From positions 1 to 59,144 of IMG/VR virus record IMGVR_UViG_3300030617_000012: a DNA stretch of 59,144 nt. One strand, written 5' to 3'. Within the stretch, counting starts at the first letter, position 1, and the number at the start of each line of letters is the position of its first letter. Source of the stretch: a virus. The notes below the pieces were generated by a model. It did no database searches. It was not told where the DNA came from and saw only the letters and a program-made list of their open reading frames with translations. The translations under genes and the position numbers were made by a program. Positions 44,048-46,530 of this stretch are shown piece after piece.

Positions 44048-44338
44048 ATGCGCGCAACTGAGTTTGTAGATGAAGTGGCCCGCAATACGCGGTTGACGAC
44101 TCCCCAAGTCGAAGAGTGCTTGAGAGCCGTCCGCGATCTGTGCGAGCGCGAGGTCCGCGCCCACGGCAAGGTCCGCATCCCCAAGCTTGTCGATATCAAA
44201 ATCACGCAGGTCTCCGAGCGCATCGTGCGCAATCCGAAGACTGGCGCTGAGTGGCTCGAAGGTCCGAGCACGCGCCTCTATGCAAAGCCATCCCCGATCT
44301 TTACTCGCCGCGTCAAAGGTGAGAAGCAAAGCATCTAA
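44048..44338 (+). CDS. HU/IHF-like DNA-bending protein
   Basis: 96 aa. The fold is recognisable: helical N-terminus (ATEFVDEVARNTRLTTPQVE), beta saddle (VRIPKLVDIKITQVSERIVR), arm with RNPKTG (about 56-61) and the closing KPSPIFTRRV. The Pro at the arm tip may be absent, so bending may be weaker than in HU. It has GGGAGAGAG before the start. It may organise viral DNA or help replication and recombination. Confidence 0.85.
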   Translation: MRATEFVDEVARNTRLTTPQVEECLRAVRDLCEREVRAHGKVRIPKLVDIKITQVSERIVRNPKTGAEWLEGPSTRLYAKPSPIFTRRVKGEKQSI

Positions 44339-44577: not shown

Positions 44578-44788
44578 TCTCCCAACGCAGAACGCAGCAG
44601 AATTTTTCTTCCGGTCCTTGCGTGTGGATGTGCCTCTCCGGGTTGCTACCACATGCGGGATGAATGCCAGGAGTATCCGGATAGGACTGGCCTCCAAAGG
44701 GCGACGGTGAATTAGCGTTGAACGACGTACAACGAGCACGCCCCATAGCTCCGTCCGCGTTGACCGGCGATACGGTCACAAGTTTCTA

Positions 44789-44880
44789 TGCGGGGTCTTC
44801 TAGTGGCTCAGGAAACGGCTAGGCAGCCCGGATTTATCCGGTCCCCGGCTGAGACGCAGGTTCGAATCCTGTCCCCGCAC
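44789..44880 (+). tRNA. tRNA-like gene with abnormal anticodon region
   Basis: A 7-bp acceptor TGCGGGG/CCCCGCA, a D stem TTCT/AGGA with loop AGTGGCTC, and a T arm GCAGG-TTCGAAT-CCTGT are all intact. Between D and T arms there are about 42 bases instead of 22. The obvious hairpin there is CCGGA-TTTA-TCCGG, whose loop cannot present a 7-base anticodon loop. No CCA is encoded. It is either degenerate or a non-decoding tRNA mimic. Confidence 0.5.
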
Positions 44881-45266: not shown

Positions 45267-45342
45267 TCCCGGGCTGATTTGGGCAGGGTGGCGGGGGTGC
45301 AAACCTCGTCGCGCAGGGTTCGATGTCCCTGACTGGGAGCCA
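45267..45342 (+). tRNA. tRNA-Cys (GCA)
   Basis: 76 bases. Acceptor TCCCGGG/ACTGGGA (6 of 7 pairs, one G.U), D arm of 3 bp, anticodon stem CGGGG/CCTCG with loop GTGCAAA (anticodon GCA, U33 and A37 present), variable TCGCG, T stem CAGGG/CCCTG. The T loop TTCGATGT has eight bases instead of seven. CCA is encoded (45340-45342) and followed by GAAT. Confidence 0.65.
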
Positions 45343-45589
45343 GAATGCGTAAGCCGCTGGTATGAGAAGGCGAGGTAGGACGACGGGTGGCCTTGAAAAC
45401 CACTGGCGAGTCTGAGAAGCCGAAGCACAGAGAGGGTGGAGCATTGTCATCCGAGACTATAAGCGGCGTCCGACCCACGACACGGGTCAACAAATTGCAG
45501 CAGTAAAGAGGTCGCTTGATGATGACTAAGCCCCACTCGACCGGGAACACGTACATCCGTCTTGCCCGACGTTAAAGGGCCTCGAATTT

Positions 45590-45674
45590 GTGCAGGTGGG
45601 TGAGTGGTTAAAACCAGTGGATTGTAAATCCGCCGTCTCTGACTTCGTAGGTTCGAATCCTACCTTGCGCACCA
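45590..45674 (+). tRNA. tRNA-Tyr (GTA)
   Basis: 85 bases, type II. Acceptor GTGCAGG/CTTGCGC (all seven positions pair, two G.U), anticodon stem GTGGA/TCCGC with loop TTGTAAA (anticodon GTA), a long variable arm and T arm GTAGG-TTCGAAT-CCTAC. CCA encoded at 45672-45674. Confidence 0.88.
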
Positions 45675-45819
45675 AGAATAATGCTTCCCGCTCAGATTGT
45701 ACCGAGTGCATGCCTTCCGGTCGGGACACAGGAAAGGCCCCCAAGCGCCGGGGTATTAAAGCAGCGTGGTAGCTGCTAGTAGCGCCTTGAAAAGCCGCGA
45801 GTGGCTCGCGAATGAGCCG

Positions 45820-45902
45820 CCCGCAAAGCGCATTCTCTGAGTGCTCTTTGCGGGTCTGGATGACTACCCTTCAAGACTGACCTTATAAATGTCCATGAAG
45901 GG
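45820..45902 (+). ncRNA. Unknown structured RNA element, copy A
   Basis: Hairpin 1: CCCGCAAAG (45820-45828) pairs with CTTTGCGGG (45846-45854); above a C/U mismatch, GCATT pairs with AGTGC around loop CTCTG. A spacer with GGATG (45858-45862) follows. Hairpin 2: CCCTTCA (45867-45873) pairs with TGAAGGG (45896-45902) around a 22-base loop containing TATAAAT. Copy B repeats this design with compensatory changes. Confidence 0.7.
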
Positions 45903-45954
45903 CGCATTTGATCCCGCGTTATTACGGATTCGCGTGGCCTGCGTTATCGGGCCG

Positions 45955-46041
45955 CCCACGAAGCGCATTTTATGAGTGTTCTTCGTGGGCAATATGCCGG
46001 ATGTCCGTAACCACGAAGCCCATAAATCGGAGCCTTACGGA
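45955..46041 (+). ncRNA. Unknown structured RNA element, copy B
   Basis: Hairpin 1: CCCACGAAG (45955-45963) pairs with CTTCGTGGG (45981-45989), GCATT with AGTGT around TTATG. GGATG at 45999-46003. Hairpin 2: TCCGTAA (46004-46010) pairs with TTACGGA (46035-46041) around 24 bases containing CATAAAT. Stem positions 4 and 6 differ from copy A on both strands so that pairing is kept; hairpin 2 stems are wholly different but equally long. Confidence 0.7.
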
Positions 46042-46124: not shown

Positions 46125-46200
46125 CGCCGGGTAGCTCAGGTGGTAGAGCGGCAGCTTGAAAAGCTGTGCGTCGGAGGTTCGAATCCTTCCCTTGCGGCCA
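46125..46200 (+). tRNA. tRNA-Phe (GAA)
   Basis: 76 bases. D stem GCTC/GAGC, anticodon stem GCAGC/GCTGT with loop TTGAAAA (anticodon GAA), T arm GGAGG-TTCGAAT-CCTTC. The acceptor CGCCGGG/CCTTGCG has one mismatch and one G.U. CCA is encoded at 46198-46200, followed by GAAT. C at position 1 and G73 are unusual for tRNA-Phe. Confidence 0.75.
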
Positions 46201-46484: not shown

Positions 46485-46506
46485 ACCTTCAAGCGTGCCC
46501 AGTTGT

Positions 46507-46530
46507 GTCGGTTCGACTCCGGCAGGCCAC
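46507..46530 (+). other. Isolated tRNA 3' end (T arm and acceptor strand)
   Basis: T arm GTCGG-TTCGACT-CCGGC followed by AGGCCAC as a 3' acceptor strand. No matching 5' strand was found within 100 bases; GTGGCCT occurs only 1.1 kb upstream at 45387. Likely a decayed tRNA gene. Confidence 0.45.

Follow-up and report, generated by a model that had tools for sequence, protein, structure and literature searches.

A covariation-supported pseudoknot RNA family in tRNA arrays and untranslated leaders of phages

The window analyzed here, the whole 59,144-base phage record IMGVR_UViG_3300030617_000012, contains a non-coding island of approximately 2 kb that holds the element described below. The island is bordered on one side by a gene for an HU-like DNA-binding protein (PHROG 379, 44048-44338), with an anti-repressor gene lying further upstream, and on the other side by a small ORF, after which comes a dUTPase gene. 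The features of the locus, with the evidence for each, are as follows.

45590-45674, + strand: tRNA-Tyr(GTA), upstream of the element and on the same strand
45803-45818, + strand: HP0, a small hairpin upstream of copy 1, GGCTC-GCGAAT-GAGCC (sequence)
45820-45854, + strand: hairpin 1 of copy 1, CCCGCAAAG-C-GCATT-CTCTG-AGTGC-T-CTTTGCGGG (sequence, folding, covariation over 14 homologous hairpins)
45853-45856, + strand: 5' strand of helix A of the pseudoknot, GGUC, overlapping the base of hairpin 1 (covariation in 104 members)
45857-45862, + strand: conserved UGGAUG, of which UGGA is able to pair with 45892-45895 as helix B (alignments)
45867-45873, + strand: 5' strand of helix C (hairpin 2 of copy 1), CCCTTCA (folding, covariation)
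45879-45882, + strand: 3' strand of helix A of the pseudoknot, GACC, inside the loop of hairpin 2 (covariation)
45885-45895, + strand: conserved AUAAAUGUCCA, loop 3 plus the 3' strand of helix B (alignments)
45896-45902, + strand: 3' strand of helix C, TGAAGGG (folding, covariation)
45936-45953, + strand: HP0, a small hairpin upstream of copy 2, GGCC...GGCC (sequence)
45955-45989, + strand: hairpin 1 of copy 2, CCCACGAAG-C-GCATT-TTATG-AGTGT-T-CTTCGTGGG (repeat comparison, folding, covariation)
45987-46041, + strand: diverged second core, copy 2 (sequence)
45987-45990 with 46018-46021, + strand: candidate helix A of copy 2, GGGC with GCCC (sequence)
45999-46003 and 46022-46027, + strand: GGATG and ATAAAT of copy 2 (sequence)
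46004-46010 with 46035-46041, + strand: helix C of copy 2, TCCGTAA with TTACGGA (sequence)
46125-46200, + strand: tRNA-Phe(GAA), downstream of the element and on the same strand

HP0-like short hairpins also stand upstream of the element in Burkholderia phage Mica, in Caballeronia pedi, and at locus L182. Sequences resembling a T-arm (GGTTCGAATCC and similar) are present at 44850-44870, 45318-45340, and 46505-46530 of the window, where no tRNA is detectable, and a weak tRNA-Sec match (E 0.44) covers 44788-44880; the island may contain degenerate or unusual tRNA-like RNAs. A further non-coding stretch, GCTCGATGACGACTGAGTGC...GAGAAACAAGTACGTCCGA (window 45510-45563), is common to the window phage, the C. 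pedi prophage (L010 8165-8225), and Bordetella phage PHB04 (L003 2500-2589).

The earlier note on this DNA had described an element of two hairpins, present twice with compensatory stem changes, and the observations behind that description were reproduced. Hairpin 1 occurs twice at a spacing of 135 bases (45816-45854 vs 45951-45989, 82% identical), with two of the nine lower pairs altered on both strands (G-C to A-U and A-U to G-C) and one pair of the cap going from G-C to G-U. The stems of hairpin 2 are unrelated yet form seven perfect base pairs in each copy (CCCTTCA/TGAAGGG around a loop of 22, TCCGTAA/TTACGGA around a loop of 24), and ATAAAT is present in both loops. When the copy-2 sequence was shuffled, a 7-bp Watson-Crick stem of the same geometry arose in 1.3% of cases, and such a stem together with an ATAAAT loop in 0.004% (4/100,000). 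Single-strand folding gave z = -4.1 for the copy-1 stretch and z = -2.9 for the copy-2 stretch; nested folding alone was rejected as the full structure because it misses the pseudoknot described below.

The covariance model and homologue search that the earlier note had proposed yielded many phage homologues with strong covariation. A blastn search with the stretch 3' of hairpin 1 found Burkholderia phage Mica and Schitoviridae of Stenotrophomonas and Xanthomonas (Piffle, Paxi, PB119, RiverRider; also Pokken), mostly within tRNA arrays, while sequence patterns together with a covariance model brought in prophages of C. pedi and other Burkholderiaceae. A pattern scan of IMG/VR gave at least 120 matches, some of them by chance, and three further, overlapping scans gave 161; E. 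coli phage mEp390, a Klebsiella phage, and one E. coli genome also carry the element. Parsing left 104 distinct members among the matches listed, comprising IMG/VR phages, isolated phages, and prophages, many of them metagenome contigs whose hosts are not known. Class- and phylum-wide genome scans returned almost nothing beyond the prophages already known, probably because few candidates were scored per genome; the plasmids searched gave no match, and model matches at L031-L035 were judged to be chance.

Comparison of these members indicates that the core, of approximately 55 bases, is an H-type pseudoknot rather than two plain hairpins. Its order is 5'-[A]-UGGAUGR-linker-[C]-AAGACG-[A']-n-AUAAAUGUCYA-n-[C']-3', in which A is complementary to A' and C to C', such that the loop of hairpin 2 pairs back to the bases immediately upstream of UGGAUG to form helix A. 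Helix A has 4-6 bp and helix C approximately 7 bp, and these two crossing helices are both supported by covariation. At least 4 bp of helix A form in 103/104 members, with all four Watson-Crick pairs in use at its variable positions: variable pair 2 is formed in 104/104 (A-U, G-C, U-A, C-G), where shuffles reach at most 65, and variable pair 4 in 103/104, where they reach at most 69; like all the shuffle controls used here, these ignore relatedness among members. Helix C, with 41 different 5' strands, reaches at least 5 bp in 84/104 members vs 23-27% of cross-pairings. Among 34 aligned members, a set of one spacing class that leaves out members with a shifted C' strand and so flatters helix C, 96.5% of cells are paired, with 84 double changes vs 21.8 +/- 4.3 after shuffling; every slid version of the partner strands scores far lower in the same set. 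Since each common type of helix A is found with 8 to 16 different C strands, a single inherited event is unlikely to account for the paired changes. A longer helix A reaching into hairpin 1 was rejected, its observed pairing being equal to cross-pairing with no pair-specific covariation.

UGGAUG, AAGACG, and AUAAAUGUCYA are strongly conserved unpaired segments, the search patterns having fixed AAGACGG plus TAAATGTC or CTGGATGAC, which partly imposes the invariance of those letters and inflates the loop conservation; mEp390 and Kp4865-1, found by blastn, have UGGAAG and GAGACG. A third short helix, B (UGGA with UCYA), is paired in 98.5% of cells in the 34 aligned members and conserved there without compensatory changes; as its exchanges are G-C/G-U only, it is plausible but unproven. 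The base at position 13, the G or A that comes after GGAUG, correlates with position 49, G13 going with C49 and A13 mostly with G49, suggesting a tertiary contact.

Hairpin 1, which consists of a 9-bp stem under a GCATT-n5-AGTGC cap, lies 5' of the core in approximately 20 to 30 members and covaries strongly in its own right (20 double-change cells vs 5.8 shuffled, in 14 homologous hairpins). Schitoviridae and promoter-proximal members are without it. Because its 3' arm includes the 5' strand of helix A, the hairpin base and helix A are mutually exclusive, and by these comparisons hairpin 1 is an optional addition that competes with helix A. The two-hairpin description falls short as an architecture, the first hairpin being optional and the second part of the pseudoknot. 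The boxA-like TGCTCTTT in hairpin 1 was considered as a NusB site and rejected, as it is replaced in homologues (L011 TGCGCCCA, L027 TGTGTTTT). Separately, Aeromonas phage LAh_8 (L008 2000-2035) has a hairpin-1-like stem-loop, CCTCAAAGGGTATTCTATGAGTGCTCTTTGAGG, without a core and just 5' of a terminator, in a region that also carries three repeats of another short motif.

The claim that the element is present twice held for the two sets of hairpin 1 and hairpin 2, but copy 2 is divergent: it retains hairpin 1, GGATG, ATAAAT, and the A/C/A'/C' order (GGGC...GCCC, TCCGTAA...TTACGGA), and is not recognized by the family model, which was built on the core but lacks helix A. Homologues of copy 2 were not found outside the window phage and near-identical contigs, and outside the window phage the element is single-copy. 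On this comparison, we take copy 2 to be a diverged, one-off duplicate of copy 1.

At the gathering score, the window island matches Rfam 15 in its two tRNAs only, and at E up to 5 and 10 it gives only tRNA-type or chance matches. The minimal unit at L071 has chance-level matches to Rfam, and in a sequence-level check the self-cleaving ribozyme models of Rfam, at E up to 10, left the element unmatched. A tRNA or degenerate tRNA was rejected as its identity, since ARAGORN and RF00005 detect the flanking tRNAs and never the element. The motif is undescribed in the open-access literature searched on structured phage RNAs; Fremin and co-workers reportedly catalogued predicted structured phage RNAs in 2023, and the motif could be included there as an unnamed candidate. 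The family is new by its absence from Rfam 15 and that literature, not by known function. The earlier suggestion of a functional RNA outside recorded families is borne out by the lack of an Rfam 15 match together with strong covariation across many phages.

Several known systems invite comparison. Proteo-phage-1 RNA (RF03044) is likewise a phage-borne structured RNA, and both occur in one C. pedi prophage island approximately 0.6 kb apart, but they differ in sequence and fold and do not match each other. GOLLD and ROOL are large non-coding phage RNAs, tRNA-adjacent in some cases, whereas the element is a 55-nt module; neither had an Rfam match in any island scanned. ToxI RNAs are processed out of an array of tandem repeats adjoining the toxN gene; the element, by contrast, is single-copy, and toxN was not noticed nearby. 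ToxI-type antitoxin RNAs are themselves small phage-relevant RNA pseudoknots (PMC5772629).

As to genomic setting, tRNA or tmRNA genes lie within 3 kb in 34/104 members, all 113 of these genes (113/113) on the element's own strand, and at five loci the 3' end of a tRNA falls approximately 8 nt or less before helix A begins. Several members (mEp390, E. coli 21AR0133, L131, L077, L213) are situated in the 5' leader of a coding operon, which in mEp390 and 21AR0133 is a long untranslated leader from the repressor gene to the next same-strand genes. Others follow an integrase or integrase-like ORF (Mica, where it is annotated, and L043, L060, L068, L133, L037, and L040, where it was judged from sequence). 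Promoters, terminators, and most gene calls were computed. Seven of the 11 best promoter matches fall at two adjacent offsets of 61 scanned: their -10 box stops 11-12 nt short of the final base of helix A's 5' strand, so that the predicted +1 coincides with or adjoins the position where helix A begins. Promoter-like sequences give this placement at no fewer than eight loci among L135, L157, L077, L155, L071, L133, L079, L131, and L258. Predicted intrinsic terminators lie within 600 nt in 15/104 members vs 5% of random stretches. L071 and L157 combine a predicted promoter, the pseudoknot, and a terminator in approximately 90-120 nt, the L071 terminator lying 56 nt on, after which ORFs occupy the opposite strand only; L060, L040, and Mica, with the element between the integrase and a convergent gene, are further candidates for autonomous units.

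The islands contain other RNAs and genes of interest. A permuted tmRNA lies in the tRNA array of Bordetella phage vB_BbrM_PHB04 (MF663786.1; L003 3021-3262; RF04321, 104 bits; tag ANDDYIRAAA), none of the RNA genes of that array being in the record's annotation, and a permuted tmRNA is also predicted at L155, 240 nt downstream of the element. An RT-15 RNA (RF03018, 178 bits) is found at L036 1506-1697, approximately 6 kb upstream of the element. At L158, an ORF starting MLVLSRQRNERILAGPVEITVVDIRGDKVRLGI, CsrA-like by eye, lies approximately 300 nt downstream of the element, and in phage Fyn8 a matching island includes a gene annotated as a carbon storage regulator. Non-coding modules recur between islands (L160 3780-4440, L161 4800-5600, L162 1815-1900, L011 5800-6200, L036-L040) and include hairpins of the form GACAGCCGGGAAAGACCGGCAC; the block GCAAACGGGAAAGG.CGTTAAA..ACGTTAGGCCGATGAGTTCAA is present in the mEp390 early leader and also between tRNAs of phages DIBBI and PSKM. 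From their sequences, these look like a set of exchangeable phage RNA modules.

Starting from the fold, the sense strand, the association with stable-RNA arrays, leaders of early operons, and integrases, and the occurrence at predicted starts, all established by sequence comparison, we propose that the element acts as a discrete phage RNA, expressed early and binding a conserved partner in the host, a reading to which we give an even chance. The RNA itself would be the product, made early in infection, whether from its own promoter or within a longer tRNA or non-coding transcript as one of its units, and would act in trans; its conserved loops would bind a conserved partner, protein or RNA, of Pseudomonadota. 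In carriers of hairpin 1, competition between the hairpin base and helix A may delay or gate folding. A discrete RNA is favored because some units leave no sense-strand gene to read into. We are tentative, falling just short of even confidence, about the fuller statement that this would be an undescribed class of small phage RNAs in lytic and temperate phages of several groups, with a conserved pseudoknot, placed behind its own promoter or in arrays and leaders, and directly binding a conserved host machine. A gene-specific riboswitch is disfavored by the variability of the downstream genes.

That same variability would suit a general cis-acting element, and the main rival is antitermination of the put type, which we regard as possible if rather unlikely: the pseudoknot, as nascent RNA, would bind its own RNA polymerase and give terminator passage or Rho resistance in leaders and tRNA arrays. 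HK022 put (~70 nt) has two stem-loops arranged as a V, together with a short triplex, targets the zinc-binding domain of the RNA polymerase beta' subunit, and as putL starts next to PL, just after the early promoter (PMC9378689). By position it is the nearest functional analogue, the element lying in the same type of leader in lambdoid phages; in mEp390 and the E. coli prophage, between the repressor gene and the next sense genes, it takes the place of nutL or putL. The element can start at +1, like putL beside PL (PMC9378689), tRNA arrays are untranslated, and for members in coding-operon leaders a cis role is just as natural as a discrete RNA. Unlike put, however, the element is an H-type pseudoknot that also occurs as short terminated units: placement downstream of an early promoter, seen in mEp390, E. 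coli 21AR0133, and promoter-proximal loci, is absent in the terminator-ended units after integrase genes, and L071, Mica, and L060 terminate at once with no sense gene beyond. Each record has a single copy, and in the mEp390 stretch the right-hand early genes have none nearby; the core model found nothing significant in HK022 24-34 kb, a record in which the put copies are unannotated. By analogy with N4 biology, the Schitoviridae array may moreover be read by phage single-subunit polymerases.

An element of processing or stability is improbable. Here the knot would cap the 5' end of an RNA or block trimming beside a tRNA 3' end, and array and leader transcripts would last longer or be cut correctly. 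The location in stable-RNA arrays fits, as does helix A beginning at +1 or immediately behind a tRNA 3' end, which would leave the resulting 5' end paired; but a plain hairpin would suffice for this, most members have no adjacent tRNA, and the conserved loops and the correlation of positions 13 and 49 indicate a specific binding surface. A structural DNA or mobile element, such as an attachment-site-like hairpin or a miniature transposon end, is very improbable, even though the element is palindromic, scattered among phages, and often adjacent to integrase genes, since its features are those of an RNA: the helices cross and contain G-U pairs, unpaired segments are conserved, the sense strand is strictly shared with tRNAs, and the element is aligned to a promoter +1. 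Association with transposases was not noted.

Over 100 distinct phage genomes, among them those of cultured phages of Burkholderia, Stenotrophomonas, Xanthomonas, and E. coli, carry this covariation-supported RNA family, which is missing from Rfam and lies mostly in stretches that are unannotated or labelled "hypothetical protein". It offers a handle on the further content of phage tRNA arrays and long untranslated leaders, and its function can be tested directly in the minimal units and in cultured carriers. If the reading as a discrete RNA class is true, these phages would commandeer a conserved host machine through direct RNA binding.
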